Assembly (NCBI GenBank): GCA_003166915.1
Contig: PMUK01000094.1
Location: 1-40,066 of the forward strand
Origin: Candidatus Cybelea palsarum
Lineage (GTDB): Bacteria > Vulcanimicrobiota > Vulcanimicrobiia > Vulcanimicrobiales > Vulcanimicrobiaceae
DNA length: 40,066 nucleotides
Reading direction: 5' to 3'
Shown: positions 4,072 through 22,810 of the stretch, one piece after another
Position numbering within the stretch: position 1 is the first letter of the stretch
Layout of the letters: every line of letters begins with the position of its first letter
The notes under the pieces: generated by a model
What the model was told of the DNA's origin: nothing
Databases searched by the model: none
Seen by the model: only the letters and a program-made list of their open reading frames with translations
Position numbers and translations under genes: made by a program

Positions 4072-4984
4072 AGATCAGCAGAGTGTCGCTCTGCCTGCCG
4101 CCGCCGGGCACGGGCGCCCCGGCGGGAACATAGAGCCGCCCGTCCACGACGGCTGCGCCGGTTCCGTGGCGGCCCTCTGGAAGCGGTGCATACTCCCCCC
4201 ACCGGTTCGTTTCGGGACCGTAGGCTTCGTTGTTGGTGAATGCGCTCGTCATGCCACCCTGCTCGCCGCCGATCGCAAAGATCTTACCGTGGTAGAGCGC
4301 GACGGCCATGCCGCTCCGCGCCGTCGGCATCGCTGCACCTGACCTCCACGCGTTACTGCGAGGGTCGTAGATATCGACGTATGCCGTATTGTTGGCGGGC
4401 GTGTCGATGCGGCCGCCGATTGCATAGAGGCGACCGTCGTAGGCAACGAGACCCATGTGGTCGCGGCCGACTGGGAGCGGGGCGCGCGAAGAATATCGGT
4501 TCGTCGCCGGATCGTAGACGAGATGCGTTTGAACGCTGTGCACGTCGCGGCCCCCGACGAGGTGAATCTCGTCGCCCAGTGCGGCGACGGAAACCGAGCC
4601 GAGCGCACGCGGGAGCGGGGCAATCGGCGTCCAGCGGTTCGTCGAAGGATCGAAGACGTCGGCATCCGCCACGGCGGCGCTATTCTGCGCAGCAAATCCG
4701 CCAAACGTATACACTTTTCCGCGATAGCCGACTGCGGCGATGTGATTGAGACCGCGCGGCAACGGCGTCTCCTCGCGCCAGGTACCGCGGTCAACGTCGA
4801 AGACTTCAACCAGCGATTGATCGACGTTTCCATTGGCGTAGCCGCCGATTACATAGACGCGGTCGGCGAGAACGGCTACGGCTACCTCGCTGCGTGCGAC
4901 CGGGAGCGCCGGTCCGCTACTCCAACTTCCCGGCGCGGGCGCGAGCCCCAGCAGCAGAACCGCCGCGGCGAGACGCTTTGTCAC
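4061..4984 (-). CDS. Secreted Kelch-repeat beta-propeller protein
   Basis: A 307-residue protein with a signal peptide (MTKRLAAAVLLLGLAPAPG) followed by about six Kelch units of roughly 45-50 residues. Each unit shows the pattern hydrophobic-YVIGG ... V..YDP.TN.W...APLP (for example RVYVIGGY, KVYTFGGF, EIHLVGGR, RLYAIGGR, KIFAIGGE, RLYVPAG), giving one closed beta-propeller outside the cytoplasm. Function is unknown; bacterial Kelch proteins can bind sugars or proteins. The GTG start at 4984 lies inside a copy of the dispersed repeat (4981-5010), whose GAAGGG abuts it. It follows sigH by 63 bases in the same direction. Confidence 0.9.
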   Translation of the reverse strand: MTKRLAAAVLLLGLAPAPGSWSSGPALPVARSEVAVAVLADRVYVIGGYANGNVDQSLVEVFDVDRGTWREETPLPRGLNHIAAVGYRGKVYTFGGFAAQNSAAVADADVFDPSTNRWTPIAPLPRALGSVSVAALGDEIHLVGGRDVHSVQTHLVYDPATNRYSSRAPLPVGRDHMGLVAYDGRLYAIGGRIDTPANNTAYVDIYDPRSNAWRSGAAMPTARSGMAVALYHGKIFAIGGEQGGMTSAFTNNEAYGPETNRWGEYAPLPEGRHGTGAAVVDGRLYVPAGAPVPGGGRQSDTLLIFTL

Positions 4985-5028
4985 CCTTCGACTGCGCTCA
5001 GGATGACACTGGGAGCGCTCAGGATGCC
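4981..5028 (-). repeat. Dispersed stop-start repeat, copy at the Kelch start
   Basis: Seen on the plus strand as CCTTCGAC ... GCTCAGGATGACA, followed by a second partial copy GAGCGCTCAGGATGCC at 5013-5028. Read in the direction of transcription it ends in TCGAAGGGTGACA, whose GTG is the Kelch start codon. One of five copies in the window (others at 6586, 14398, 15123, 22778). Confidence 0.85.
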
Positions 5029-5047
5029 GTAGCTCAGCGTGACGCGG

Positions 5048-5695
5048 CTATTGGAACTCGAACTCGGCCAGATTCTTTTCGATCTTCCGCTTGACGCGCT
5101 GGAGCGCGTTGTCGATCGATTTGACGTGACGGCCCAAGTCGCGCGCCATCTCCTGATAGCTCTTGCCCTCGAGATACGATTCCAGCACCTGCGATTCGAG
5201 CTCGGAGAGATTCTGGCGAATTCGCTGACGGATATCGTCGGAGACCTCTTGTGTCACGACCAGCTCTTCTGGGTCGGAGGTCTTCTGCGAAGCCATCACG
5301 TCGAGCAACGTGCGCTCGCTGTCTTCGTCGTAGATGGGCTTGTTGAGCGAAATGTATTGGTTGAGCGGGATGTGTTTTTGGCGCGTCGCCGTCTTGATCG
5401 CGGTGATGATCTGGCGCGTGATGCAGAGTTCGGCAAAAGCGCGGAAGCTCGAAAGCTTGTCGGCCTTGAAGTCGCGTACGGCCTTGTAAAGGCCGATCAT
5501 CCCTTCTTGGATGATGTCCTCGCGGTCCGCGCCGATGAGAAAATAGCTCTTCGCCTTAATCCGAACGAAGTTTTTGTACTTGTTGAGAAGGTACTCCATC
5601 GCCAGATTGTCGCCAGTCTTCGCGATAGCCACCAGGTCTTCGTCGACCCGCTGTTGGTATTCCACTCCATCCGAGACGGGATGGGTCATTGCCAT
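5048..5695 (-). CDS. sigH: RNA polymerase sigma factor, SigH-like (sigma-70 family)
   Basis: A 215-residue sigma factor with region 2 (about residues 30-100) and region 4 (about 150-210). The segment YFLIGADREDIIQEGMIGLY, then KADKLSSFRAFAELC and QIITAIKTATRQKHIPLN, closely matches the Bacillus SigH/Spo0H core as I know it. Region 4 has the helix-turn-helix SYQEMARDLGRHVKSIDNAL. I chose ATG 5695 because it aligns with the SigH N-terminus and has GGGG about 12 bases upstream; a GTG at 5752 would add 19 residues. The gene order rlmB-sigH is that of Firmicutes, yet nothing here indicates sporulation. A near-consensus promoter at 5770-5798 can express it apart from the upstream operon. Confidence 0.93.
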   Translation of the reverse strand: MAMTHPVSDGVEYQQRVDEDLVAIAKTGDNLAMEYLLNKYKNFVRIKAKSYFLIGADREDIIQEGMIGLYKAVRDFKADKLSSFRAFAELCITRQIITAIKTATRQKHIPLNQYISLNKPIYDEDSERTLLDVMASQKTSDPEELVVTQEVSDDIRQRIRQNLSELESQVLESYLEGKSYQEMARDLGRHVKSIDNALQRVKRKIEKNLAEFEFQ

Positions 5696-5765
5696 ATCGT
5701 TGTCTGCCCCGTGAGAGATGTGCCGCATGCGCAGGCCTGAGCCCGTCGGCACGGCACGTCGAGGC

Positions 5766-6614
5766 TTAGTATATAGGAGGGTACCCCTCCCCCGTCAAGG
5801 ACGAGGCTAGCATGCGCTGCCGAAGAGCCTCGAAAATCAGGACGCCCGCGGCGACCGAGGCGTTGAGGGAAGCGACTCGACCGAGCATTGGAATCCTCAC
5901 CAGGAAGTCGCACTCGCGCTTGACCAGGGGCGCGAGCCCGCTTCCTTCGCTGCCGAAAACGAGCGCCAGATCCCGGTTGAGGTCGGCCTTCCCCAGCTCA
6001 ATTCCGGCTGGTGAGGCGTCAGCCCCGACCACCCAGACGCCCGCCTTCTTGAGCACCCGGATGGTACCGGCGATATTAGCCACTCGGGCGATTGGCAGGT
6101 AGGCCGCCGCCCCGGCGGCCGCTTTGCGGACCGTTGCGTTGATCCCCGCCGAGCGGCGCTCGGGCAAGACCAGGCCGTCGGCGCCGGCAGCCTCGGCCGT
6201 TCGGACGATCGCGCCGACGTTATGGGGATCGGTCAGGTGGTCGAGCACGACCAGCATGCGCGGCGAGCCGTCGGGACGGGGACGCGCAAGGACCTCGCCC
6301 AGCGACGCGTACGGAAACGGGGGCGCGGTCGCGATCACTCCCTGGTGCGCTTTAAAGGGAACGCGATCGAAGAATGCGCGCTGCTCGAAACGAACCGGCA
6401 CGTTGCGCTCTTTCGCTTGCGCGAGAAGTACCCGCAGCGCGGCGTCCTTTGTGCGATCCGCCGCCACCGCAATCGAACGCAGCCGCTCGCCGGCGAGCAG
6501 CGCTTCTTCGACGGCGTGGATTCCGTAGATCAAATCGTCGAAATCCAGTACGGTCCGCGGGCCTCGCTGTCTCAACCCACGACGGCCCTTCGACGAGCTC
6601 AGGACGTCGTCCAA
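5766..6614 (-). CDS. rlmB: 23S rRNA 2'-O-ribose methyltransferase, RlmB/TrmH family (SPOUT)
   Basis: A 282-residue SPOUT enzyme that methylates a guanosine ribose of 23S rRNA with S-adenosylmethionine. The N-terminal substrate-binding domain starts at YGIHAVEEAL (about residue 29). The three SPOUT motifs are present: LDHLTDPHNVGAIVRTAEA, VFGSEGSGL and IPMLGRVASLNASVAAGV, forming the trefoil knot. The family normally begins near YGIHAVEEAL; the first 13 residues (MDDVLSSSKGRRG) come from a dispersed repeat. The TTG start at 6614 overlaps cysS by 16 bases. A TTG at 6575 with AAGGG about 9 bases upstream is an equally good start and would leave the repeat as leader. It sits in the cysS-rlmB-sigH order known from Firmicutes. 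Confidence 0.93.
   Translation of the reverse strand: MDDVLSSSKGRRGLRQRGPRTVLDFDDLIYGIHAVEEALLAGERLRSIAVAADRTKDAALRVLLAQAKERNVPVRFEQRAFFDRVPFKAHQGVIATAPPFPYASLGEVLARPRPDGSPRMLVVLDHLTDPHNVGAIVRTAEAAGADGLVLPERRSAGINATVRKAAAGAAAYLPIARVANIAGTIRVLKKAGVWVVGADASPAGIELGKADLNRDLALVFGSEGSGLAPLVKRECDFLVRIPMLGRVASLNASVAAGVLIFEALRQRMLASSLTGEGYPPIY
5770..5798 (-). promoter_or_regulatory. Sigma-70 type promoter for sigH
   Basis: On the minus strand TTGACG (5793-5798) is separated by exactly 17 bases from TATATA (5770-5775). Transcription should start near 5763, about 68 bases before the chosen sigH ATG. The -10 overlaps the stop codon region of rlmB, so this is an internal promoter. The spacer contains a near-palindrome centred on GTAC. 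Confidence 0.75.
5777..5791. promoter_or_regulatory. GTAC-centred palindrome in the sigH promoter spacer
   Basis: The 15 bases GGAGGGTACCCCTCC read nearly the same on both strands and fill the space between the -35 and -10 hexamers. A repressor bound here would block the promoter. No regulator is identified, so an operator role is inference. Confidence 0.35.
6586..6609 (-). repeat. Dispersed stop-start repeat, copy at the cysS/rlmB junction
   Basis: Plus-strand CCCTTCGACGAGCTCAGGA. In the transcribed direction its CCTGAGC supplies the TGA stop of cysS (6599-6601), and in another frame it is read as the first residues of rlmB. Confidence 0.8.
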
Positions 6615-8041
6615 CTAGTCCCCTCTTTTGTGTCGTGCAGCTCGACGCCGCATCGCTGCAACGCATCGCGAAGCCGATCGGAGGCGGCCCAATCCTTCGC
6701 GCGACGAGCCTCGCCTCGCATCGCTATGACTCGTTCAATCGCTGGGTGCGGTTCCAGGCTTTCGAGCTTTCCGGCGGCACCGTCAACACGCTCGTCTTCG
6801 AGCGCGGCTTGCAGGCGTTGCACGAACTGACCCGTCAGCTCGGCGACCGGCTCATTCAACCACGATTCGTTTGGCTCGATGCCAAGGATCGTCAGCCAAT
6901 AGCGTAGCCGTTCAACCGGTGCGTTTGCGGCAAACTCGTAGAGCACCGCGAGCGCCGCGGCGGTATTCATGTCGTCGTCGAGAGCCGCTTCCATCCGCGA
7001 ACCGAACGGCGAAGCTTGCGCCGGCGAACCGACGTCGTGCTGCGCCGACGCGGCCCGATAGGCCGTCTTGATCTTGCTCAGGCCCAGCGCGGCCGCGGCA
7101 ATCGAGTCTTCGGTGAAGTTCATCACTTTGCGATAGCCCGTCTGCAAGAAGAGCCAGCGAATCGCCTGCGGATCGTGACGCCGCAGCAAGTCGGAGAGCG
7201 GCTCGAAGTTTCCAAGCGATTTTGCCATCTTGCGGTTGTCGAAGAGCAGCAGTCCGCCGTGCACCCAAAAGTTTGCCATCGGCGGACGCGACATCAGCGG
7301 CTCGCTCTGCGCGATCTCGTTCTCGTGATGCGGAAAGATGAGGTCCGCACCGCCGCCGTGGATGTCGAAGCCCACGCCGGGCGGATCGAGCAGCGCACGC
7401 GCCATCGCCGAACACTCGATGTGCCAGCCCGGGCGCCCATCGCCGTACGGTTCGAACGGCCAACGCGGTTCGCGCGGCTTAGCAAACTTCCACAACGCAA
7501 AGTCGAGCGGATCTTCCTTATTTTCGTCAACCTCGATGCGGGCGCCGGCCTCGAGGTCGGCGATGTTTCGATTGGCCAGGCGGCCGTAACTCCGAAACGT
7601 CGCAACGCGATAGTAGACGCCGTCGCGGGTGACGTAGGCGTGTCCGCTCTCGACGAGCTCGCGTATCATCTGCTGGATCTCGCCGATATACTTAGTGGCA
7701 TACGGCTCGAAATCGTATTCGAGGATGCCGAGCTTACGCATCGATTCCTTGAACTCGGCATAGAAGTACTCGACGATCGCGTGGTAATCCTGACCGGTTT
7801 CGATTCCCGCTTTGATGCTGCGATCGTCGATGTCGGTGACGTTCTGCACGTATGTTACGCGATAGCCGCGATGGGCCAGGTACCGGCGCAGCACGTCAAA
7901 AAAAAGAAAGGAGCGCGCGTGACCGAGATGTGCTTGCGCGGACGGCGTCAGCCCGCAGACATAGATACGCACCTCGTCTTCGCGCAACGGCTCGAACTTC
8001 TCGACCGTGCGCGTTCGAGTGTTGTAGAGTCTTAACGGCAC
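6599..8041 (-). CDS. cysS: Cysteinyl-tRNA synthetase
   Basis: A 480-residue class I aminoacyl-tRNA synthetase, usual length for CysRS. It charges tRNA-Cys with cysteine. Visible marks are the zinc cysteine in YVCGLTPS, the HIGH-type motif HLGHARSF, VTDIDDR, the second zinc ligands in GWHIECSAMA and HHENEIAQSE, and the KMSKS-type loop KMAKSLGNF near residue 270. The HIGH motif differs slightly (HLGH) from the common form. The related mycothiol enzyme MshC is shorter, so CysRS is preferred. The stop codon lies within a dispersed repeat. It starts 6 bases after cysE, coupling cysteine synthesis to its use. Confidence 0.96.
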   Translation of the reverse strand: MPLRLYNTRTRTVEKFEPLREDEVRIYVCGLTPSAQAHLGHARSFLFFDVLRRYLAHRGYRVTYVQNVTDIDDRSIKAGIETGQDYHAIVEYFYAEFKESMRKLGILEYDFEPYATKYIGEIQQMIRELVESGHAYVTRDGVYYRVATFRSYGRLANRNIADLEAGARIEVDENKEDPLDFALWKFAKPREPRWPFEPYGDGRPGWHIECSAMARALLDPPGVGFDIHGGGADLIFPHHENEIAQSEPLMSRPPMANFWVHGGLLLFDNRKMAKSLGNFEPLSDLLRRHDPQAIRWLFLQTGYRKVMNFTEDSIAAAALGLSKIKTAYRAASAQHDVGSPAQASPFGSRMEAALDDDMNTAAALAVLYEFAANAPVERLRYWLTILGIEPNESWLNEPVAELTGQFVQRLQAALEDERVDGAAGKLESLEPHPAIERVIAMRGEARRAKDWAASDRLRDALQRCGVELHDTKEGTSWTTS

Positions 8042-8047
8042 CGCTTT

Positions 8048-8743
8048 TTAGATCACCCAGCTCCAGGATTCGTCGCCGGTCGCTTCCCCCTGCTCGAGCT
8101 CGTTCAAGCGTTGTTCGAGATGCTCGAGTTGGCGTTGCAGCCGAACGATTGCGTCGGTCGTCGGATCGGGCATTTCGACCCGCGGGCGGTCCGAAACGAC
8201 GCGAACCGGTTTGCCGTCTTGCGCGACGATCCGCGCTGGAACGCCGACGACGGTCGCATTGGCCGGCACGTCTTTCACAACGACAGAACCGCCGCCGACC
8301 TTTGCGTTATCGCCGAGCACGATCGCGCCGAGCACGCTCGCGTTGACGCCGACGGTCACGTTACGGCCGAGCGTCGGATGGCGCTTGCCGTGCGAGAGGC
8401 TCGTGCCGCCGAGCGTGACGCCTTGATAGATCGTGCAGCCGTCGCCGATCTCCGACGTTTCGCCGATAACGACGCCCGAACCGTGATCGATGAAGACCCC
8501 TTTGCCGATGCGAGCCGCCGGATGGATCTCGATTCCCGTAAGGAAGCGCGCGACGTTGGCCAAGAAGCGCGGCAGCAGCGGAATCCCGGCGCGATAGAGT
8601 GAGTGGTTGATGCGATGCGCGACGAGCGCATGAAAACCCGGATACGAGAGGACGACGTCGAGCCAGCCGCGCGCGGCGGGGTCGCGCTCTTGCGGCGCCC
8701 GCAGGTCGGCTCGTATCGTTTCGAACGGCTCGTCCATTTCCAA
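8048..8743 (-). CDS. cysE: Serine O-acetyltransferase
   Basis: A 231-residue enzyme that acetylates serine with acetyl-CoA, the first step of cysteine synthesis. A helical N-terminal part (about 1-70, with HALVAHRINHSLYRAGIPLLPRF) precedes a left-handed beta-helix of hexapeptide repeats. Key stretches are GIEIHPAARIGKGVFIDHGSG (catalytic His/Asp region), GETSEIGDGCTIYQGVTLGG and RHPTLGRNVTVG. The length corresponds to the shorter Firmicutes-type CysE. It lies just upstream of cysS, as in Bacillus. The C-terminal 35 residues are charged and probably helical. Confidence 0.95.
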   Translation of the reverse strand: MEMDEPFETIRADLRAPQERDPAARGWLDVVLSYPGFHALVAHRINHSLYRAGIPLLPRFLANVARFLTGIEIHPAARIGKGVFIDHGSGVVIGETSEIGDGCTIYQGVTLGGTSLSHGKRHPTLGRNVTVGVNASVLGAIVLGDNAKVGGGSVVVKDVPANATVVGVPARIVAQDGKPVRVVSDRPRVEMPDPTTDAIVRLQRQLEHLEQRLNELEQGEATGDESWSWVI

Positions 8744-8782
8744 CAGTGTAACCCGTCAATCCCAATCGAGGTGACAACCGGG

Positions 8783-9268
8783 TCAGGACGACGCCGAGTC
8801 GAGCAGCGCCACGGCGTAGGCGGCGATGCCGCTGCCGTCGCCCGTATAACCCAGGCCCTCGCTCGACTTGGCCTTCACGCTAATGCGGCTTTGGTCGATC
8901 TCGAGTCGGACGGCAAGATTCGCGCGCATCCAGTCGATGTGCGGCGCGAGCTTCGGACGATCCACGACGATCGTAGCGTCGACGTTGACGATCTCGAAGC
9001 CGGCCACGCGCACGGCTGCCGCGCACTGCGCGAGCAGCACCATCGAGTCGGCATCCTTCCAGCGCGGATCGCTTGCCGGAAAGCGAGTACCCAGATCGCT
9101 CATCGCGGCGGCTCCGAGCAATGCGTCGGCGAGTGCGTGGGCGAGGACGTCGGCGTCGGAGTGGCCGAGCGCACCGCGTTCGAATGGAACGTGAACGCCG
9201 CCCAAAATCAGCCTACGCCCTTCGACCAGCGGGTGTGCGTCGAATCCCTGGCCGACGCGCATCGTCAA
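8783..9268 (-). CDS. ispF: 2-C-methyl-D-erythritol 2,4-cyclodiphosphate synthase
   Basis: A 161-residue cytoplasmic enzyme of the MEP isoprenoid pathway, which closes CDP-methylerythritol 2-phosphate to the cyclodiphosphate with release of CMP. Zinc ligands appear in GQGFDAHPL (Asp, His) and LGHSDADVLAHAL (His); DLGTRFPASDPRWKDADS and the C-terminal EGLGYTGDGSGIAAYAV complete the signature. Homotrimer by family. Its ATG overlaps the ispD stop by 4 bases, so the two are translationally coupled. Confidence 0.96.
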   Translation of the reverse strand: MTMRVGQGFDAHPLVEGRRLILGGVHVPFERGALGHSDADVLAHALADALLGAAAMSDLGTRFPASDPRWKDADSMVLLAQCAAAVRVAGFEIVNVDATIVVDRPKLAPHIDWMRANLAVRLEIDQSRISVKAKSSEGLGYTGDGSGIAAYAVALLDSASS

Positions 9269-9957
9269 GCAGTGACCGCGCGCGCGTTCAAAATCGTTTC
9301 CGCCCGGATCACGTCACCCGGCAGCGTGACTTTGAAGTTCTCGCTGGTAGATGCTACGACGACCACGGATATGCCGATGCGTTCCAGTAGCGCCGCATCA
9401 TCGGTGACGGCAACGCCGTCGAGCCGGCCGCGTTCGTGCGCGGCGCGCAGCTCGGCGGTCAGGGCGAACTGCGGCGTTTGCGCCGCCCAGAGCGTACCCC
9501 GATCGAGCGTCGCACCGACAATGAGCGAATCGCGATCGACCAGCTTGATTGTGTCCACGACCGGCTCGGCCAAGAGCGATGCGCGTCCCGCACGCACTTC
9601 ACGCATTCCGGCGCGTACGTCCGCGGCCGTAACGAGCGGGCGCGCACCGTCGTGAATCAACACGGCGTCGCAACGGTCGCTCAGTGCCATGATGCCCTCT
9701 CGAGCGCTATCTTGGCGCAACTGCCCTCCGCGCACGACGCGTGGCGTGAGGTTGGGCGCGAGGCGCAGGGCGAGCTCGCAGAGCGGCTCAATGGATTCGG
9801 GCTCCGTTGCAATGACGAGCTCCGCAATTTCCGGCATTGCAGCAAACGTTTGAATCGACCATCCAACCATCGGCACTCCGGCCAGTTCGATAAACTGCTT
9901 CGGCCGCCCTAAACGCAGGCCGCGTCCCGCCGCGACGATGACCGCACCCCATCTCAC
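9265..9957 (-). CDS. ispD: 2-C-methyl-D-erythritol 4-phosphate cytidylyltransferase
   Basis: A 230-residue MEP pathway enzyme that joins CTP to methylerythritol 4-phosphate. The nucleotide-binding start VIVAAGRGLRLGRPKQFIELAG matches the family G-x-G-x-R...K pattern. Further marks are DAVLIHDGARPLV, a conserved metal and substrate region, and TPQFAL followed by TDDAALLE. Full length. It overlaps the PIN/TRAM gene by one base upstream and ispF by four downstream, in the Firmicutes order yacL-ispD-ispF. Confidence 0.95.
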   Translation of the reverse strand: MRWGAVIVAAGRGLRLGRPKQFIELAGVPMVGWSIQTFAAMPEIAELVIATEPESIEPLCELALRLAPNLTPRVVRGGQLRQDSAREGIMALSDRCDAVLIHDGARPLVTAADVRAGMREVRAGRASLLAEPVVDTIKLVDRDSLIVGATLDRGTLWAAQTPQFALTAELRAAHERGRLDGVAVTDDAALLERIGISVVVVASTSENFKVTLPGDVIRAETILNARAVTA

Positions 9958-12166: not shown

Positions 12167-12180
12167 AGCGGCGACGGCCC

Positions 12181-13188: not shown

Positions 13189-13244
13189 GGGAGCCGTCTT
13201 TGGGGGCCACCCAGGGAATCCTTGCCTCCGGTCAACATTTGCGC

Positions 13245-13273
13245 TTGCCCTCAAATGCGCCGCATGGTACTAT
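13245..13273 (+). promoter_or_regulatory. Possible rpmB promoter, near-leaderless
   Basis: TTGCCC (13245-13250) and TACTAT (13268-13273) are 17 bases apart, each matching four of six consensus bases. The start of transcription would fall near 13280, only a few bases from the rpmB ATG at 13283, and no Shine-Dalgarno precedes that ATG. Confidence 0.4.
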
Positions 13274-13282
13274 CTGCCGGCT

Positions 13283-13474
13283 ATGGCGAAGCGCTGTGAA
13301 GTATGCGGAAAAGGACCCAAGGCGGGCAACAACGTCAGCCACGCCATGAATAAGACCAGGCGGCGCTGGCTACCGAACCTGCAATCCGTTCGGATCGACG
13401 ACCGCGGAGTGCACCGCACCGCCAAAGTCTGCACCAGCTGCCTGCGCTCCAAACGCGTCACCCGCCGCGCCTAA
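13283..13474 (+). CDS. rpmB: Large-subunit ribosomal protein L28 (bL28)
   Basis: A 63-residue basic protein of the 50S subunit. It opens [24 protein letters not shown] and carries two CxxC pairs (CEVC and CTSC), the zinc-binding form of bL28. RRRWLPNLQ and [23 protein letters not shown] match the family. No ribosome-binding site is visible. It is the only plus-strand gene between 4984 and 24259. Its 3' end overlaps the convergent thiL by 17 bases. The family is essential or near-essential in many bacteria. Confidence 0.96.
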
Positions 13475-14453
13475 GAAAGTGATCCCAGCCCAAGCGATCG
13501 AGCGGCGCCCCGCGCCAATCGACGCCGCGTGCTTTTCGTAAAGCCCCAACACGCAGCAGCTTCTTTTTAAAACGCTTTTCGTAGCGGCCGGCGAGGTAGC
13601 GGAACGCGCGAGCCCGGACCGTCACCAATAGCTCGAAATCCTCACCGCCGGCCAGCGCGAAACGCTCGGGGTCTTCGCCCAGCCGTTGCGCGGCCTCGCG
13701 AGCGGAGTCGGCGACGGGAATGGCCTCGAGAACCGCACCGCAATCGCTCGCGGCACAGAGCCGCCGTGCATCGGTCGAGAGCCCATCCGAGCAATCCATC
13801 ATCGACGTCACGTTTGCGCTCGCCCCTAGAAAGCGGCCTTCGGCTATTCGCGCAGTGGGCCGGCGAAAGGCCTGCAGCGCGGCGTCGCCATTCGCGCCGT
13901 CCATAAGTCCGCGTTGGTTTGCGAGTTCGAGTCCCGCGCGTGCTGCGCCGAGCGCGCCGGTCACCGCCAGCACGTCCCCCGGTCCGGCGCCCGCGCGCGT
14001 CTTGACGCGCGTGGTGCGTACCTCGCCGACGACCGTAACCGAGATCGTCAGGAGATCGGAGCGCGATAGATCTCCGCCGGCGATCGTGATTCCAAAGCGC
14101 CGAGCCGCAGCGGCGATTCCCTGGTAGAGCTCCACGATCTCAGGCTGCGCGTTGGCTGCCGGCACACCCAGCGCGACCGTTGCGAGAACCGGTCGCGCGC
14201 CCATTGCGGCCAGATCGCTGAGCGCCGCCGCCATCGCGCGCCAGCCGGCGTCTTCGAGCGACATCGTGTCGCGCCGAAAATGGACGCCTTCGACGAGCAT
14301 GTCCGTCGATATGACGCTGCGATGGGAACGCGAGGGCTGCCAAAGCGCCGCATCGTCACCGATCCCCAAGATAATGCGGCGGTGTTTTTCCGCTTCATGC
14401 TTCGACAGGCTCAGCATGACACTGAGGTTGTTAACGATTTCGTCTTCGGTCAC
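13458..14453 (-). CDS. thiL: Thiamine-monophosphate kinase
   Basis: A 331-residue enzyme that phosphorylates thiamine phosphate to the active cofactor thiamine diphosphate with ATP. The fold is AIR-synthase-like, with [56 protein letters not shown] and [11 protein letters not shown]. Between the usual N-terminal helix (TEDEIVNNL) and IILGIGDDA lies an extra in-frame stretch, [13 protein letters not shown], that is encoded by a dispersed repeat and is not expected in the family. The GTG start at 14453 overlaps the rpe stop by 4 bases. Thiamine diphosphate serves the transketolase encoded at 33348. Confidence 0.95.
14398..14423 (-). repeat. Dispersed stop-start repeat, in-frame copy inside thiL
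   Basis: Plus-strand GCTTCGACAGGCTCAGCATG followed by ACACT. Here the repeat is read through in frame as LSLSKH near residue 14 of ThiL; its usual TGA is out of frame. It therefore adds protein sequence where other copies add a stop codon. Confidence 0.8.
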
Positions 14454-15103: not shown

Positions 15104-15122
15104 TTAATCAGCGGCTTCATCG

Positions 15123-15154
15123 TGTCACCCTTCGACTCCGCTCAGGGTGACACT
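15123..15154 (-). repeat. Dispersed stop-start repeat, perfectly palindromic copy
   Basis: The best-formed copy: TGTCACCCT (15123-15131) pairs with AGGGTGACA (15144-15152) across 12 bases, a 9-bp perfect hairpin. In the transcribed direction it provides the TGA stop of the PASTA gene (15142-15144) and lies 20 bases before the rpe ATG. Confidence 0.85.
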
Positions 15155-16134
15155 GGCGGCGACGGGGAAGGCTTTGCACCGTAAACGCTCGGCGGTTCGG
15201 TTCCGAGGCGCGTTTCGCCCACGAGCGTGTTGTTGACGTACATGTCGAGCACGGACGTTCCGACCGCGGTGACGGTAAAATCGAGCTTCTGGCCTGGCTC
15301 GGCAAAGGCGTGATAGAGATCGTACTGGCCCGTTGCGTCCGTGAGGGCGAGGCGGACGTCGAGCTGCGCGTCGGTTGCGGCGTTGTCGGTTTCGGGAACC
15401 GAAACGAGCACGCGGGCCTGATGGATGATATAGCCCGATTCGTTCGGGCCGGCGCTGACCTGCAGCGAAACGGGCTCGAACGATGCGATCTTTGCATCGG
15501 GCGCGGGACGCTGTCGCGCGACGACACCATGAGCGGGCCCGCTTCCGCCCAGCGGCGTCCACACGATCTGCCCGAGTTGGATGCCGACATCCGCGGCGAC
15601 CGTTCGCGCCTGATCGATCGTCAGTCCGACTAAATCGGGAACGCGCACGTTCGCCCGGCCGCCTTGGCTTACGACTAGCGCGACGGAGTCCCCCTCGTGC
15701 ACGCTGGTTATCGGCCCCGGAGCCTGCGAGATCACGTGTCCCTCCGGGATAACGTCGCTCTTTGCGTACGTTATCTTTCCCAATGTAAGGTGCGCGCGAG
15801 AAAGATCGAGCTGCACTTCTCGCATGGACTGGTAGCGCAAGTCGGGCATGAGACGCGCGATGATTCCGTCGCTAATAACGAACCCAACCTGGCGCCCTTG
15901 GCGCACTTGATCGCCGGCCGGCGGCCGCTGCGTGATAATGACGTCTTTGGGATAGCGATCGCTCGTCGTGTGATCCACGACGGTCGAGCTAAGGTTCAAT
16001 CGGGCGATCTCGGCGTTGGCGTCGGCCAGCGTTTGCCCTACAAATGAGGGCACGGTCACCGTCGCCGACGAGGGAATCAAGAAATCGTAGATCTGGTGCC
16101 CAAACCAGACGACCAACGCGACGAAGATCACCAA
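15142..16134 (-). CDS. Membrane-anchored PASTA-domain protein (no kinase domain)
   Basis: A 330-residue protein with one N-terminal membrane segment (IFVALVVWFGHQIYDFLI) followed by three PASTA domains, about residues 27-92, 93-162 and 163-230. They start TVPSFVGQTLADANAEI, LMPDLRYQSMREVQLDL and RVPDLVGLTIDQARTVA. Residues 235-310 form an extra beta-rich domain of unknown type, and the tail is Pro/Ser-rich. PASTA domains usually sit outside the membrane on Ser/Thr kinases or penicillin-binding proteins and sense muropeptides; no kinase is fused here. The GTG at 16134 is uncertain; TTG 16137 is as good. The stop codon lies in the dispersed repeat. It follows yebC by 20 bases. Confidence 0.85.
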   Translation of the reverse strand: MVIFVALVVWFGHQIYDFLIPSSATVTVPSFVGQTLADANAEIARLNLSSTVVDHTTSDRYPKDVIITQRPPAGDQVRQGRQVGFVISDGIIARLMPDLRYQSMREVQLDLSRAHLTLGKITYAKSDVIPEGHVISQAPGPITSVHEGDSVALVVSQGGRANVRVPDLVGLTIDQARTVAADVGIQLGQIVWTPLGGSGPAHGVVARQRPAPDAKIASFEPVSLQVSAGPNESGYIIHQARVLVSVPETDNAATDAQLDVRLALTDATGQYDLYHAFAEPGQKLDFTVTAVGTSVLDMYVNNTLVGETRLGTEPPSVYGAKPSPSPPVSP

Positions 16135-16154
16135 GACGATCGTAGCGGGGGGCT

Positions 16155-16901: not shown

Positions 16902-16934
16902 TTTATGCTAAACCTCTCCGCTAGCGCCTTCGCG

Positions 16935-17099
16935 AGGAGCCTGTAGGGTTATGCCCGTTTTCGGATTCGTTGCCGAATTTTGTTCGAAAACGAGGCGCGA
17001 TGAGGGAGCGAAGCCGTAGCTTCGTGACCGAAGAGCAACGAAGTGTTCGGACAAAAGGCGGCACGAAGACGGAAATGCGGCATAATCCTACAGGCTCCT
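16935..17099. repeat. 165-bp near-perfect inverted repeat
   Basis: The outer arms 16935-16955 and 17079-17099 are 21 bases each and pair throughout with one G-T wobble. Middle arms 16969-16991 and 17043-17064 pair with few mismatches, and the apex is GAAGC CGTA GCTTC at 17010-17023. The symmetry centre of the outer arms and of the apex agree (about 17017). The right end overlaps the stop codon of the glycosyltransferase and the left end stops about 33 bases before the yebC ATG. It codes for nothing evident. It could be a MITE-like element or a strongly folded RNA between two genes of one operon. Confidence 0.85.
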
Positions 17100-20000
17100 A
17101 GCCCGGCCCGATTATCCAGGTCGGGAACCACATCCGCTGATGCCAAGCGTTCCACGCAATCGGATGCGCCGCCAGAATCGGATAGAAATAGATGAAACCC
17201 GCCGCTGCCGCGGCGACGTAGGAGCCGACTGCCAAACCCCCGAGCCATTGGAGATTCTCCCGGCGGCGCAACCACAACCAGGCCCGCTGCAAGAAAATGG
17301 CGTTGCACAGACAGATCAGGGGAATGTTCACGTAAAAATGATAGGCGAAGATCAGGCGGGGCGAGCCGATCCAGGGCAGCCATTGCAAGAGATAGGTGAT
17401 TACGATCAGCGCGTAGCCTTTGTTCCGTTCTCGCCATGCCAGCACGCCCACGAACGGCACGCAGAACAAGCCGAACCACAGGATGATCGGGTTCGGCAGC
17501 GAGGTAATCTCGTAGACGCAGCAGCCCTTCTCATCGCTGGGATTGTTGCGATGATCCTGATAGAAGTACGCGACCGGGACGTAATCGATCGGCCACTCAA
17601 ACCACTTCGAGGAGTACGGGTGCGTGGCCACGAGGTTATGGTGATACTCGTACATCGTGTACTGTCGATAGACGACGTCGTTGACGTTGTGAACCTCGCC
17701 CGGATCGGGAGAATGCCGCACGACATCCGGCACCCAAACCAGCGCGTACACCGTGGCGCTCACGAAGAGAATGGTCGCCAGCGCGCCGTCGATGCGAAAG
17801 CCGCGCGGATTGCCCCAAAGCGTCGGCCGCAGGTCGAACAGATACCGTTGAAGCCAGACGGCGATCAACACCACGAAGCTGACGCCGAAGCCCATCACGC
17901 CGTACCATTTCGAGCTCACCAGCAACCCGAGTGCGACGGTAAAGAGAATCAGCCAACGCCGCGAGGTATGCCCATTCTCAACGGCGCCCGTACTGCCGTC
18001 GCGAATTTCGTCCTCGGCATAGGTGACGCTGCCTTCGGGCGTGTCGTACTCGACACTGCCGTCGCGTGAGTATTCGATGGTCAGCGGATCGTCGCGATAG
18101 AGCAGCGTGCCGCCCTTGCCCTGCGAAAGCTCACCGCGCGTAATCTTTCCACGCGAGTCGATGGTTCCACCGTCGGCGGCAAAGAGCGACGTACCCGCGG
18201 CATCGCGCAGCGCATACGAGCCTTCGGCGTACGAAAGCTCCCGGCGCCCGTCGCCGAAGAATCGCACGAAGAGCACGTAACGGACCAAGAGGTAGATTCC
18301 GCTCGCGCAATAGAGCGCGACGACGACCGTCGAAGCCGTATCGAAGTGCCACAGCGCACGTCCGATCGAAGCGATTGCCAGCCCGGCGAGCACTGCTCCG
18401 GCGGGGCCGGCAGCAAGGGCCCACGATGGAACGGTTACGTGCGCTCGTTCGCCGACCTGCGAGTTGATCCAGAAACGATAGAACGCGTAGACGGCCAGCG
18501 TCGCAAAGAAGACGACGAAGCCTTCGGGCGTCGCGATTCGAGATTGCACGAAATGCATACCGTCGAAGGTCAGGAGCAGCGCGGTGATCGTTGCAAAAAG
18601 CGTCGAGCCGGTGATGCGCTTTGCAAAAACATACAGCAACATGACGACGAGCGCGCCGAAGACGACGTCGAGAAAACGCCAGCCATACGAGTTGTCGCCG
18701 TTGCCCATGCCGACCAGGGCATTGAGGCCGGTCCAGCCGCCAAGCCCGTGGCCGTGAGGCATCCCCCCGAAAAGCATCATGGAGAGCGTTATCAGAAGTT
18801 TGGTCAGCGGAGGATGGGTATTTTCGTAGATGCGAAGGTTCTGCAGATACTCTTCGCCGGCGCGCGCAAAGTAAATTTCGTCGAAGACCTTATCGGGCGG
18901 CCACCAATAACCGATGAACGACAGAATGAAGTTTCCGACGCCCAGCACCGCGACGATCGCATAGTCGAGCGGAGCGCGCATCGCGGTCAAACCCTCGCGA
19001 GGATCGAACCAGTTGCGCAGGGCGGGGAGAATGGCCGCGCCGGTTTGCGGTTCCGACGCAGGTTCCCGGATCGTCGAAGGCTTGGCCGGGCGCAACTCGG
19101 CACCGCCCAAGAATTGGTAACCGAGGACGAAGAACGTACCTACGGCAAGCAGCGAAAAGAGCGTCGTCCACAGACCCCAGAGGTTCTGGGCGTTGACGCC
19201 CGGCGTGTTGCCGGTGACTGCGTGCAGGTATTGCAGGCTATATAAGAGATTCGCGAAGAGCACGATCGAGAGCGCAATCGCGCCCCCAAAATAGCGGCGC
19301 GCCAACGGAATGCACGCGATCGTAAAGAGCAGCCCGTTGAAGAGATAGCGCTCGTGCATGCGCGTCGCCAAGACGAAGAAGGCGAGTGTGGCAATCGCGC
19401 AGCCTTCGAGGAGTGCCGCGGAGGTGCGATCCTGGACGTAACGCCAAACGACTAAGGCCAGCGCTGCCACCACCAGCAGCAGGCCCCAGGCAAATTGCGG
19501 AAGGCCCAAGATATATTGGTTGTCCGACACCCACATGGTGCCGCGAAGAGCCCATAGGTTGAAGGCGTTGACGGTGTTGTACTGATAGACGCCCGAACCG
19601 TAGGCGTATTGGTTCCATAGCCAGCCGAAGGCTGCAACTGGGTTGCTGGGGTGAAACGGCTCGGTGATGAGCAGCGCGAACGCAAGCGCAGCGGCGACTC
19701 CGATCGCCGTCGCAACGATTCGCTCGCGGCGGCGCTGCGGGTCGACGAACGCAAATGCCACGAGGAGCGGCAGCAGAACCGCCGCCTGCGGCTTGATCAG
19801 CAATGAATAAGCGAACGAGAACCACGCCAGCATGATCAAGAGAAGATGCCCGCGCGATTGCGGCGCCGCGTCTTCACTGCGCAAGAGCGCGTAGATTGCT
19901 AAGAGCGCCAAGCCTCCCGAAATCGAATCCACTTGTCCCCACGACGCGGAGATGTAGATCGTCGCCGGATTGAACAGATAAAAGGCGGCCACACCGAAGG

Positions 20001-20379
20001 CCACGGCCGCACCGGCGAATCGTCGAGCGATCGCGTAGAGCAGGAGGCCGACTCCAAGATCGGCCAGTATTGCCGGCAGCTTTACCAGCAGGCGAAGAAT
20101 CGCGTAGCCGGCGTCGTGGGACGCAAAGAATGCGTGCCAGAGTCGCCCGACGATAGCGAGGACGTAGAAATAACCGGGTGGATAATCGGCAAAGCCAACG
20201 GTCGAATAAAACGCTGCAAAGCCGTGATCGCTCAACGAAAGGGCCCACGCCACGTACGTGTTTATGTCGGTCTTGAAGCCTTCGTTACTCACGAAGAACA
20301 GCCGCACGAGCAATCCAAGGAAGAGCAGCGCGGGCAGCCCCCACGCTTCCAAGTGAGCCCGGGCCGGCGCGCGCGTCAT
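17098..20379 (-). CDS. Tandem GT-C glycosyltransferase (GT87/DUF2029-like plus PMT/GT39 module)
   Basis: A 1093-residue multi-pass membrane protein made of two GT-C modules. Module one (about 1-430) has a loop Asp in KTDINTYVAWAL near residue 37, FADYPPGYFYV and many membrane helices; it resembles polyprenol-phosphate-dependent mannosyltransferases. Module two (about 470-1093) is protein O-mannosyltransferase-like, with DKVFDEIYFARAGEEY (about 495-510) and ENTHPPLTKLL (about 515-525), the conserved first-loop motif. A hydrophilic, Gly/Asp/Tyr-rich, beta-like insert occupies about 705-800 within module two. Both modules keep their first-loop acidic residues, so both may be active. The donor is probably a polyprenyl-phosphate sugar; a polyprenyl synthase gene overlaps it by 4 bases upstream. 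Target unknown. Confidence 0.88.
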   Translation of the reverse strand: MTRAPARAHLEAWGLPALLFLGLLVRLFFVSNEGFKTDINTYVAWALSLSDHGFAAFYSTVGFADYPPGYFYVLAIVGRLWHAFFASHDAGYAILRLLVKLPAILADLGVGLLLYAIARRFAGAAVAFGVAAFYLFNPATIYISASWGQVDSISGGLALLAIYALLRSEDAAPQSRGHLLLIMLAWFSFAYSLLIKPQAAVLLPLLVAFAFVDPQRRRERIVATAIGVAAALAFALLITEPFHPSNPVAAFGWLWNQYAYGSGVYQYNTVNAFNLWALRGTMWVSDNQYILGLPQFAWGLLLVVAALALVVWRYVQDRTSAALLEGCAIATLAFFVLATRMHERYLFNGLLFTIACIPLARRYFGGAIALSIVLFANLLYSLQYLHAVTGNTPGVNAQNLWGLWTTLFSLLAVGTFFVLGYQFLGGAELRPAKPSTIREPASEPQTGAAILPALRNWFDPREGLTAMRAPLDYAIVAVLGVGNFILSFIGYWWPPDKVFDEIYFARAGEEYLQNLRIYENTHPPLTKLLITLSMMLFGGMPHGHGLGGWTGLNALVGMGNGDNSYGWRFLDVVFGALVVMLLYVFAKRITGSTLFATITALLLTFDGMHFVQSRIATPEGFVVFFATLAVYAFYRFWINSQVGERAHVTVPSWALAAGPAGAVLAGLAIASIGRALWHFDTASTVVVALYCASGIYLLVRYVLFVRFFGDGRRELSYAEGSYALRDAAGTSLFAADGGTIDSRGKITRGELSQGKGGTLLYRDDPLTIEYSRDGSVEYDTPEGSVTYAEDEIRDGSTGAVENGHTSRRWLILFTVALGLLVSSKWYGVMGFGVSFVVLIAVWLQRYLFDLRPTLWGNPRGFRIDGALATILFVSATVYALVWVPDVVRHSPDPGEVHNVNDVVYRQYTMYEYHHNLVATHPYSSKWFEWPIDYVPVAYFYQDHRNNPSDEKGCCVYEITSLPNPIILWFGLFCVPFVGVLAWRERNKGYALIVITYLLQWLPWIGSPRLIFAYHFYVNIPLICLCNAIFLQRAWLWLRRRENLQWLGGLAVGSYVAAAAAGFIYFYPILAAHPIAWNAWHQRMWFPTWIIGPG

Positions 20380-21392
20380 GCCGCCGTGAGACCGAGCGTG
20401 GACGCCAAGAACTCTCCGAACTCTCGATTGGGATGGCGCTCGATCACGCCAACGTGCTCCGCTGCCTTTTGCGTGGCCGCTTCGCGAGCGCCGAGCTCAT
20501 CGAGCGCCTCGACGACCCTTGCGACCGCGGCATCGTCGAGCGAAGAACCGGTTGCATAGGCCTGCGCCACCACGCTGCGTGCTGCCGACGGAGGCTGCGA
20601 AATAGCCCAGACGACGGGAAAGGTCCATTTTCGGCGCGCGACATCGCTTCCGGCCGTTTTGCCGGTCTCGTCCAATGTCGACCAGATTCCCGCGATGTCA
20701 TCCCGAATTTGAAAGGCCATGCCGTAGGCACGCCCGACGGCACCGTAGGCTTCGATCGTCGCAGCATTGCAGCCGGCCGCGAACGCGCCCAAACGGCATG
20801 AGGCATCGAAGAGTTGCGCAGTCTTACACTCGATCATGCGATAGTAGCCCGGCCTATCCACGACTCGCTCCGTCTCGAAATCCAAGTCCAGCGACTGTCC
20901 CTCGCACATCACCGCGTGCGCCTCGTGCAGGAGCGCGATCATTTGCAAGACTCTGGCGGCATCGAGATACGCGGCGGCATGCTCCAGACTCAAAAAACTC
21001 AGCGCGCACATCGCGTCGCCGGCATTGATCGCGGCAGCGACTCCGTACTCGCTCCACAACGTCGGGCGCCCATGGCGCAGCTCGTCGCGATCCTCGATAT
21101 CGTCGTGGACCAGGGAATAGTTGTGAAAGATTTCGACTGCCACCGCCGCATCGAGCGCGCGCTCGAGCGGAGCGCCCTCGCTGGTTGCGACGCGCATGAC
21201 CATTTGAGGACGTAAGCGCTTGCCTCGGCGCGCCGGTCCATAGCCGCCGTAACCGAAGTGCCGCAAAAGCATATCGGAGATCTCTTCCGATCCCCGATAT
21301 CCGGTAATCCGCTCTTCGAGGGCGCTTTCAAAGCGCTCGGCAAGGTCGGTCGGGCTATGCAGAGGCTGCGAGCTCCTCCATCCGAGCCTCAA
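20376..21392 (-). CDS. Polyprenyl diphosphate synthase (trans-isoprenyl synthase family)
   Basis: A 338-residue all-helical prenyl transferase that lengthens allylic diphosphates with isopentenyl diphosphate. The first aspartate motif is intact (LVHDDIEDRDELRHGRPT). The second reads QIRDDIAGIWST, that is DDxxG rather than DDxxD, a form I know from actinobacterial and Chloroflexota-type homologues. GKRLRPQMVM is the basic pyrophosphate-binding site. Chain length cannot be told from sequence alone. The called TTG start overlaps ispH by 38 bases and is doubtful; the conserved domain begins at about residue 20. It lies between ispH and the glycosyltransferase, suggesting it makes the lipid carrier precursor. 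Confidence 0.9.
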   Translation of the reverse strand: MRLGWRSSQPLHSPTDLAERFESALEERITGYRGSEEISDMLLRHFGYGGYGPARRGKRLRPQMVMRVATSEGAPLERALDAAVAVEIFHNYSLVHDDIEDRDELRHGRPTLWSEYGVAAAINAGDAMCALSFLSLEHAAAYLDAARVLQMIALLHEAHAVMCEGQSLDLDFETERVVDRPGYYRMIECKTAQLFDASCRLGAFAAGCNAATIEAYGAVGRAYGMAFQIRDDIAGIWSTLDETGKTAGSDVARRKWTFPVVWAISQPPSAARSVVAQAYATGSSLDDAAVARVVEALDELGAREAATQKAAEHVGVIERHPNREFGEFLASTLGLTAA

Positions 21393-22197
21393 CTTTGTCT
21401 ACCAGCCAGCCGGGTGTCGAGGCTCCCGACATGAGCCCGGCCACTTCCACCTTCGCGAACCACTGTGGTTGCAGCTCGTCAGGTCCTTCGATATGGTAGG
21501 CGCGCGCGCCGCGCGATTCGGAGAGATCGGCGAGATGCTTAGTATTGGCCGAGGTCTTTCCGCCGACGACGATCATCACTTCGACGTCCTTTGCCAGCCG
21601 AAGCGCCTCATTCTGCCGATTGTGCGTATCGGTGCAGATCGTGTTGACTGCGCGAACCTCGTAGTACTTCGCCGAAAGCTCTCGCACGATTTCGGTGAAT
21701 CCTTCGCCGGACCACGTCGACTGAACGACGACGCCGACTTTGCTGGAGCGCGGGAGTTTTTGCACATCGGCGGAGCTTTGGATGCACCACGCGCCCGGCA
21801 CGTGGCTCAGCGTTCCCTTGACTTCGGGATGATTTGGATCGCCGATGACGATGATCTTGTAGCCGTCGCCTTTGAGCTTCTCGGCCTGCACGTGGATTTT
21901 GGTGACCATCGGGCACGTGGCGTCGATGATCTCGAGCTTCTTCTCCTTGGCCTTTTCGAAAACGTCCACCGGAAGCCCGTGGGCGCGGACGAAGAGCGCG
22001 CCCGAGTCGACGTCGTCGACCGTCGTCGCATTCTTCAACCCGCGCGCCGAAAGCGATTCCACCATCTGCGGATTATGCACGACGTGTCCCAGCGTCGTCA
22101 CATCACCGCGGGAGGCGATCGCCTCCTCCGCCTTCTTTACGGTAATGGCAACTCCGAAGCAGAATCCTTGAACGGATGCCTTACGTATTTCCACCAA
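21355..22197 (-). CDS. ispH: 4-hydroxy-3-methylbut-2-enyl diphosphate reductase
   Basis: A 280-residue iron-sulfur enzyme that performs the last MEP step, making IPP and DMAPP from HMBPP. The three cluster cysteines are in GFCFGV, DATCPMVT and NTICTDTHNRQ. HVVHNPQMV and RAHGLPV carry the active-site histidines; GLMSGASTPGWLVD is the conserved C-terminal motif. Together with ispD and ispF in the other minus-strand block, most of the lower MEP pathway is in this window. Its start overlaps plsC by 17 bases, following the cmk-plsC-ispH order of Clostridia. Confidence 0.96.
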   Translation of the reverse strand: MVEIRKASVQGFCFGVAITVKKAEEAIASRGDVTTLGHVVHNPQMVESLSARGLKNATTVDDVDSGALFVRAHGLPVDVFEKAKEKKLEIIDATCPMVTKIHVQAEKLKGDGYKIIVIGDPNHPEVKGTLSHVPGAWCIQSSADVQKLPRSSKVGVVVQSTWSGEGFTEIVRELSAKYYEVRAVNTICTDTHNRQNEALRLAKDVEVMIVVGGKTSANTKHLADLSESRGARAYHIEGPDELQPQWFAKVEVAGLMSGASTPGWLVDKVEARMEELAASA

Positions 22198-22783
22198 TAC
22201 TCCCCGCCAGCAGTTCGATCGTCTTCATAACCTCACCGGTAAACTTCGCCAAGTCCTCGCGCGTTGCTTTCCGACCGGCCTGCAGCGAGATTGGCGGCCC
22301 GAAAGAAACGTCAATACGGTTCAGGCGAAGCGCCCGGTCGCTGCCGCGAATGAATGCTGGAACGACCGGAGCCTTCGCCAGCGAGGCCAGCAGTGCGACA
22401 CCAGTCTGAGGCTGGATCTCGCCAGTGCGGTTACGGGTGCCCTCGGGGAAGATTCCGACCGCCCCGCCCGCCTCCAAGACCTGAAGCGAGCGCCTAATAG
22501 CGGATGTCGCGCTGCCCTTCCGGTCGACGGCATAGGCGCCCAGGGCTCGAATCACGGCGCCGAGGACCGGAACGTCGAAGAGCTCTTTTTTGGCCATGTA
22601 GCTGATGCGCCTCGGGCAAAAGCACCCCATCAGCGGCGGATCGAGATATGAAACGTGGTTGCAGGCCACGATGAGCGGGCCCTCGGCGGGAACGTTCTCC
22701 GCTCCGAAGACCCTCGCACGCCAGAGCACGTGCGCCGTGGCGCGCACCGTAGCCTTCGCCAAATCGTAGAATGCCGTGTTCAT
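22181..22783 (-). CDS. plsC: 1-acyl-sn-glycerol-3-phosphate acyltransferase
   Basis: A 200-residue membrane-associated acyltransferase that makes phosphatidic acid from lysophosphatidic acid. The catalytic NHVSYLDPPLMG (HxxxxD motif) and the substrate-binding FPEGTRNRTG are both present. ATG 22783 gives the family-typical opening MNTAFYDLAKATVRATAHVLW. The frame extends upstream to 22966 but that part is antisense-like cmk shadow and repeat-derived (HPERSRR). The start codon itself belongs to a dispersed repeat, with GAAGG directly against the ATG. It lies 13 bases after the cmk stop, which is in the same repeat. Confidence 0.93.
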   Translation of the reverse strand: MNTAFYDLAKATVRATAHVLWRARVFGAENVPAEGPLIVACNHVSYLDPPLMGCFCPRRISYMAKKELFDVPVLGAVIRALGAYAVDRKGSATSAIRRSLQVLEAGGAVGIFPEGTRNRTGEIQPQTGVALLASLAKAPVVPAFIRGSDRALRLNRIDVSFGPPISLQAGRKATREDLAKFTGEVMKTIELLAGSIGGNT

Positions 22784-22810
22784 CCTTCGACTGCGTTCAG
22801 GATGACATCC
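22778..22810 (-). repeat. Dispersed stop-start repeat linking cmk to plsC
   Basis: Plus-strand CATCCTTCGACTGCG then TTCAGGATGACATCC. In the transcribed direction ATGTCATCCTGA ends cmk (stop at 22797-22799) and GAAGGATGAAC begins plsC (ATG at 22781-22783). A single copy thus supplies the stop codon of one gene, a GAAGG and the start codon of the next. Confidence 0.88.

Follow-up and report, generated by a model that had tools for sequence, protein, structure and literature searches.

Among the described repetitive extragenic palindromic (REP) sequences, those tagged by CGTC include Neisseria dRS3 and Rickettsia RPE-4 and RPE-6, and the text of Di Nocera et al. (2013, PMC3733652) gives them a stem of 8-9 bp with A-T in the first two pairs and at most one mismatch, a loop of 4-5, an unpaired CGTC, often TGTC, and a tail of three bases, mostly CCA; repeats with more than one stem mismatch were discarded there. 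As described in the same source, head-to-head dimers predominate, clusters are rare and no transposase is linked to the repeats. It also places REPs near and in genes and reports that GTAG termini often lend a stop codon to flanking open reading frames, so the general idea of a stop codon lent by a REP is already published. REPs within 15 nucleotides (nt) of a stop codon are described as stalling ribosomes (Liang et al. 2015, as cited in PMC12306157 and PMC5082802). Here we describe a short palindromic repeat, five copies of which lie at or near gene junctions in a 40,066-nt stretch of Candidatus Cybelea palsarum (contig PMUK01000094.1, assembly GCA_003166915.1; hereafter the window) and which an initial annotation had proposed to be a translational stop-start unit. 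We consider it probable that the repeat is instead a non-autonomous, hairpin-forming mobile palindrome of REP type, whose placement at gene ends is mainly the pattern left by surviving insertions. Support for mobility comes from its dispersal, from two covarying stem pairs, from presence or absence, inversion and replacement at orthologous sites, and from its occurrence in both orientations within and between genes.

Anatomy and distribution of the repeat

The host is a draft genome (G000; 3.36 Mb, 249 contigs, 94.8% complete) in which the window is contig C124 (G000:C124). A search for the core pattern TTCGACN(2-6)CTCAG found 122 cores, 61 on each contig strand, versus eight for the control, the same pattern read backwards. 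Core counts in 18 genomes of the genus ranged from 23 to 215 (controls 1-10), and those in 23 genomes of other genera from the same family, order and class were mostly near the control level. The clear exceptions outside the genus, both in the same family, were G019 (25 versus 1) and G021 (23 versus 3), with smaller excesses in the family for G020 (9/0), G023 (8/0) and G024 (5/1) and in the class for G039 (8/2). Abundance of the unit is mostly restricted to the genus. At five loci chosen for dense matches in G011 and G007, tandem runs of 6 to 23 cores were present, with steps mostly of 25-34 nt; one of the arrays (L078, G011:C1:1902487-1903133) comprises 23 exact cores with a step of mostly 25 nt, the first core facing opposite to the next. 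The strand counts of cores in G011 (148:52) were set aside because tandem arrays distort such counts.

Read from its tagged end, the unit has the consensus TGTC-A-Y-S-C-T-G-A-G-loop-C-G-A-A-G-S-R-(T/C), which is laid out as a TGTC tag that is mostly unpaired, a short stem of eight places with a GA/AG tandem mismatch at its heart, and a loop of 5 nt in one class and 6 nt in the other. The constancy of the GA/AG mismatches and of the innermost pairs is no result, since the search core fixes them. Among 105 distinct short-loop units, pair -2/16 was Watson-Crick in 90 and pair -1/15 in 95 (shuffle means 57 and 54, with none of 2000 shuffles as high for either), and these pairs show two-sided exchanges, T-A to C-G and C-G to G-C. 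For the longer loop, the corresponding values were 57 of 89 at pair -2/17 (mean 37, 0 of 2000 as high) and 74 of 89 at pair -1/16 (mean 70, 28 of 2000 as high). Shuffles overstate the significance of such covariation because related sequences vary non-independently; despite this kinship, the two-sided exchanges are hard to explain otherwise.

The tag letters T, G, T and C are conserved at 80, 85, 87 and 82% in 123 short-loop units, and at 73, 83, 75 and 74% in 104 longer-loop units. Pairing of the tag with the opposite side did not clearly exceed shuffles (best 26 of 2000), the tag C facing G in 60 of 105 short-loop units; the places opposite TGTC mostly pair no better than shuffles, and the tag is therefore described as mostly unpaired. 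The first stem pair is A-T in 50 of 105 short-loop and 13 of 89 longer-loop distinct units, and the second is T-A in 65 of 105 and 30 of 89, respectively. Many short-loop copies carry GAC(A) after the stem, which extends the palindrome, and a three-base CCA tail is absent, the 3' flank being variable (G follows the stem in 61% and 41% of units in the two loop classes).

Some units of relatives have hairpin loops longer than 5-6 nt. The loops at L107 (G007; e.g. GCGCGCTCGCGACGCGAGCGC), L117 and L146 (G004), L118 (G005) and L119 (G012) are enlarged by an extra small hairpin or a GC-rich stretch, which suggests loop variants like those of other REP families. In the host, a composite form in which a second unit of opposite orientation lies within the loop of the first was seen at L030, L031, L043, L051, L052, L063 and L067, as in L030, TGTCATCCTGAGCCCTTCGACTGCGCTCAGGACAGGCTCCGTCGAAGGACGAC. 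Head-to-head pairs of units were also present among those inspected.

The full palindrome, TGTCAYCCTGAGCN(2-3)GTCGAAGGRTGACA, occurs in at least 115 stretches of a public genome collection. Among the matches listed, record titles name Eremiobacterota, Gamma- and Alphaproteobacteria, Spirochaetes, Bacteroidetes with Ignavibacteria and Chlorobiota, Nitrospirae, Nitrospinae, Syntrophaceae, Verrucomicrobiales, Caldithrix, Zixibacteria, Cloacimonas, Neomarinimicrobiota, Lachnospiraceae and several Patescibacteria lineages, which we take to represent about 14 phyla. Most of these records are metagenome-assembled genomes (MAGs), for which wrong binning is possible; carriers not titled as MAGs among the matches listed include Bacteroides stercorirosoris, Dyadobacter sp. 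MSC1_007 and Stygiobacter electus. Short queries returned no match to the palindrome in phages or plasmids, and its sole exact full occurrence in a viral contig collection (L265, IMGVR_UViG_3300026519_000173, 4871-4899) may be a host stretch.

Placement relative to genes and reading frames

To place copies relative to genes, 100 of the 122 host cores were fetched with their flanks and joined into 66 pieces totaling 306 kb, window included; the other 22 were left out, as were five fetched cores with loops of 5-6, leaving 95 copies with loops of 3-4. A home-made hexamer-based finder supplied the gene calls. Copies lay inside a called gene in 38 of 95 cases, compared with 85% of random positions in the same pieces, while 17 lay over a stop codon (2.5% at random, p about 2e-10) and 37 were intergenic (18 tandem, 9 convergent, 8 divergent and 2 at an edge). 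Convergent junctions were over-represented (9/95 versus 1% at random). Starts were not enriched, being touched by four of the 95 copies, one of which also lies over a stop, compared with 2.4% at random (p 0.19). The 17 copies over stops make 18 unit-stop overlaps, 13 of which use a TGA of the unit (nine the early TGA and four the GATGA/GGTGA end), the other five being host stops at the unit edge. A unit at a gene end often supplies the stop codon. Its orientation to the gene is even, both at stops (10 same, 8 opposite) and at starts (3 and 1), as well as between genes (20/17 at 3' sides and 18/17 at 5' sides).

These counts limit what the window alone had implied. The initial annotation had found all copies in a single orientation relative to transcription, none among the plus-strand genes, and every copy touching a start codon, a stop codon or the first residues of a gene. 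The single orientation is local to the window and the absence from plus-strand genes is not general: genome-wide the orientation is balanced, and 75 of the 95 copies touch neither start nor stop. The pattern it had named as telling against its proposal, copies spread evenly, in both orientations and mostly away from gene ends, is present for orientation and for distance from gene ends, but the spread is uneven. Service of one unit as both stop and start was seen in only one of the 95 copies and in the last window copy, so it is not general. The stop-start role thus retains the supply of stops, their enrichment and the cmk-plsC junction described below; as a general function it is not supported, given that starts are not enriched and orientation is balanced.

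An intact unit read in the tagged orientation has one frame that soon runs into the TGA of CCTGAGC, a second that reaches the TGA of GATGAC only late and a third that stays open; in the opposite orientation, two frames are open. The open tagged frame encodes PERSRR in longer-loop and LSLSK in short-loop units, and this accounts for both peptides, which the initial annotation had associated with similar sequences of other bacterial genomes. A TGA within the last 9 bases of the 3' part is kept in just 19 of 95 host units. For the 39 copies wholly within called genes (one also over a neighbor's stop), 28 were antisense and 11 sense, in line with the 2:1 predicted from an intact unit (p 0.61) and rejecting equality (p 0.009). 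A frame filter is plausible, although not proved, if units insert intact. Of the genes holding such copies, eight were scanned. Domains identified six of them as ligA, lhr, pgk and the genes of a penicillin-binding protein, a fadB-like enzyme and an aminotransferase, in all of which the copy is in frame; a seventh encodes a sortilin-type protein, and one gave no Pfam match. At gene tails, the early TGA was used by 9 of 11 sense copies within 60 nt of the gene end (expected 52-53%, p about 0.05), by 9 of 11 within 120 nt (43-45%, p about 0.013) and by 9 of 14 within 300 nt (38%, p about 0.045), an excess that is suggestive and depends on the gene calls. Insertion with loss of frame-breaking copies accounts for most of the placement, the intragenic orientation fitting loosely.

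Turnover at orthologous junctions and the cmk-plsC case

All five window copies of the initial annotation were confirmed (Table 1). Four contain exact cores and the one at 22786 has a single mismatch (CGTTCAG); the other four one-mismatch core matches in the 40 kb have no arms. On the minus strand, all five read (C/G)CTGA(G/A)C...TCGAAG. Three stops are indeed formed by the TGA of a unit, in the genes at 6599-8041 (cysS), 15142-16131 (PASTA protein) and 22797-23489 (cmk), and two starts lie inside a unit, GTG at 4984 (kelch-repeat gene) and ATG at 22783 (plsC-like acyltransferase).

Table 1. The five copies of the repeat in the window and the genes they touch
Copy	Position	Strand	Context
1	4979..5008	-	Full palindrome between sigma-factor gene (5048-5728) and kelch-repeat gene (4061-4984), whose GTG start is in the 3' arm of the unit
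2	6585..6608	-	Insertion of 24 bp (ends placed to within a few bases) in cysS at its 3' end; cysS stops at the TGA of the unit (6599-6601)
3	14395..14421	-	In-frame insertion in the N-terminal part of thiL (13458-14453), open frame LSLSK
4	15123..15152	-	Full palindrome; TGA (15142-15144) ends the PASTA-domain gene; rpe downstream
5	22779..22807	-	cmk stop TGA (22797-22799) and plsC-like start ATG (22781-22783), both inside the unit, 13 nt apart

At these five sites, a strict test found a unit in 22 of 62 resolved junction-genome pairs. Among 2780 80-nt tiles cut from these loci it found units in 44, and in 5 once the letters were reversed. The 62 pairs leave out four unresolved ones, among them G007 at copy 4, and genomes without anchors. 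The strict test was preferred over a looser unit search, whose reversed-letter control reached 680 of 2780 tiles. By the strict test, the copy 1 junction has units in G003, G004, G005 and G012 and none in G001 and G014; in the window, a partial second unit follows copy 1 at about 5012-5027. Copy 2, which lies in a gene with CysS domains, has a clean empty site in G006, between TGGAC and CGTCGTGGG, and an identical insertion in G003 and G010. Copy 3 lies within a variable N-terminal stretch of ThiL that has no unit at all in G014, G005 and G002, whereas thiL of G016 has a different unit, read as PERSRR, beside two bases N, and thiL of G003, G007 and G010 also has another unit by the strict test. 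At the copy 4 junction, units are present in G006, G008, G012 and G016 and absent from ten other genomes. When eight further host copies were compared with four close genomes, the same junctions carried units that differed in count, loop and orientation. Unit turnover is fast, with certain junctions hit repeatedly, through either new insertion or exchange of old units.

The junction at copy 5 is the best case for a stop-start role. With starts predicted as the nearest in-frame start codons, cmk and plsC share a 4-nt ATGA overlap, without a unit, in G016, G007, G009, G017 and G001, and the ATGA overlap is also present in G011, in which the strict test detects no unit. We therefore regard the overlap as probably ancestral. 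In the window, G006 and G012, cmk stops at the early TGA of the unit, and plsC starts at an ATG or GTG of the unit exactly 13 nt further on. In G003, G014, G004 and G010, cmk likewise stops at a TGA in CTGAGC, and a start follows after 19, 33, 37 and 8 nt, respectively. The unit of G005 is read through (AERSRR, similar to PERSRR) and the ATGA overlap is retained, and the strict test detects no unit in G002 (TAG/GTG, overlap of 1) or G008 (TGA, with TTG after 8 nt). A unit can thus serve as both stop and start here, as the initial annotation had suggested, although this need not mean that it was selected for that role. With overlap and unit states in a single genus, cmk-plsC is a natural experiment on translational coupling.

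At gathering scores, Rfam matched only three tRNAs in the window. Between two minus-strand genes, window positions 16932-17102 form a large imperfect inverted repeat with 60-nt arms that are 75% complementary; it likewise has no Rfam match at gathering scores, and the orthologous site of G003 (L094) has the arms and a shorter middle.

Origin of the repeat and its relation to known families

If the repeat is a mobile palindrome, it would be spread either by an enzyme that acts on single-stranded hairpins in trans or by a repair process of the host, and insertions that break genes would be lost. Those kept would either end a gene near its old end through the TGA of CCTGAGC or leave the frame open as PERSRR, LSLSK or a similar peptide, and at overlapping junctions an insertion would convert the ATGA overlap into a stop and a start derived from the unit. 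Several observations weigh against this explanation. A search restricted to PF01797 (Y1 transposase), which matched 5 of 14 known genomes as a positive control, gave no match in the 18 genus genomes, 10 of which are at least 90% complete. In other phyla, PF01797 was present in 16 of 19 genomes examined (71 matches), and 30 of these Y1 loci were inspected; none had a unit beside the gene and three had one 0.9-1.3 kb away. A Y1 or REP-associated tyrosine transposase (RAYT) as partner in the genus was rejected on the first of these results, and units beside Y1 genes in other phyla on the second. There is no clear target-site duplication, and differing units at one junction could be replacements or gene conversion of an old copy. 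The outer pair -3, the first A-T, does not covary (55 of 105 versus a mean of 55, and 29 of 89 versus 31). The intragenic 28:11 departs from the 54:46 expected from present open frames (p 0.036), a ratio derived from intergenic and edge copies as they now stand; the 14:8 of the 22 deep, high-scoring intragenic copies is compatible with 2:1, 54:46 and equality. Finally, the gene calls are unvalidated, with starts as their weak point.

Of the other explanations, a post-transcriptional RNA element, in which a hairpin located where a gene ends would make ribosomes stall, shield the 3' end of the mRNA or terminate transcription in the manner of Escherichia coli REPs, is possible but doubtful. The predicted fold exceeds shuffles for the idealized unit (z -3.3) and copy 4 (z -3.1) and is weaker in copies 2, 3 and 5 (z -0.7, -1.5 and -1.8), and both the excess at convergent junctions and the stalling described for REPs close to stops would suit such an element. 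However, the absence of orientation bias and the many copies in reading frames argue against it, and no terminator-like T-run was noticed by eye beside the units. Retention for ending one gene and restarting the next at a fixed short distance is very improbable. The enrichment over stops, the share of sense copies at gene tails that use the early TGA (9 of 11 against an expected 44-53%, p about 0.01-0.05) and the 13-nt spacing shared by three genomes at cmk-plsC are what it would predict; nevertheless, starts show no enrichment, most copies are intragenic or intergenic and do not touch a gene end, orientation is balanced, GAAGG stands directly against the ATG without ribosome-binding spacing, and G005 keeps its ATGA overlap with the unit in an open frame.

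There is likewise only a slim chance that the repeat is a mobile stop-start cassette, which would prefer overlapping RTGA junctions, perhaps because its own ATGAC/GTGAC ends match the target, and would be kept for a stop and start at fixed distance with a hairpin between them. If true, a cassette palindrome acting in many phyla would be a general route to rewire translational coupling in operons. Old conserved regulatory sites that have diverged could explain why the same junctions recur so far above the tile background; yet units at one junction vary in loop, frame, number and orientation among close genomes and copy 4 is absent from G003 and G010, which are among the closest, and we regard this origin as very improbable. 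A mobile REP-type palindrome remains our preferred explanation, one in which a near-identical 29-30 nt sequence extends, by record titles, from Patescibacteria to Bacteroidota and Nitrospirota with no mobilizer found here, and leaves traces of how mobile hairpins are tolerated inside genes and at gene ends.

A literature search with core, arm and peptide strings and by titles found neither this sequence family nor a REP that turns a gene overlap into a stop and a start, and no title among the matches listed dealt with such repeats in Eremiobacterota; judged by their titles, the papers that contained matching strings dealt with other subjects. The comparison with PMC3733652 was made by text description, and the family may be drawn among the consensus figures of that paper. 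In the wide sense of REP, the unit is short, palindromic and present in many similar copies, although 38 of 95 lie inside genes (far below the 85% at random) where REPs seldom overlap coding sequence. As regards miniature inverted-repeat transposable elements (MITEs), which have terminal inverted repeats and a target-site duplication, the clean empty site of copy 2 showed no clear duplication.

Compared with the REPs tagged by GTAG and associated with RAYT (Nunvar et al. 2010, PMC2817692), as far as their description there extends, the unit shares high copy number, a hairpin and an intergenic preference, and a Coxiella REP in that paper has a similar heart, GCTGAGCTTGCGAAGC. Unlike these, its head is TGTC rather than GTAG, the genus has no Y1 match and none of the 30 inspected loci was flanked by a unit. 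The Rickettsia palindromic elements, as related in PMC3733652, are likewise palindromes lying in frame inside conserved proteins, in a different host. The REPs of Liang et al. (2015), as cited, are also hairpins near stops but are defined by their distance downstream of the stop, whereas the present unit is itself the source of the stop in 13 of 18 overlaps. By description, the repeat appears closest to the CGTC/TGTC-tagged REPs of PMC3733652. Shared with the account given there are a C/TGTC tag at one end, a short stem and loop, intragenic copies, the lack of a linked transposase gene (here for PF01797 only) and occurrence in distant phyla. It differs from that account in its two GA/AG stem mismatches, a first A-T pair that is often missing, a loop of 5 or 6, the lack of a conserved three-base tail, and the tandem arrays of G011 and G007 where clusters of CGTC REPs are rare. 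Compared with these families, the repeat is ordinary in kind and unusual in its spread and in the cmk-plsC case.

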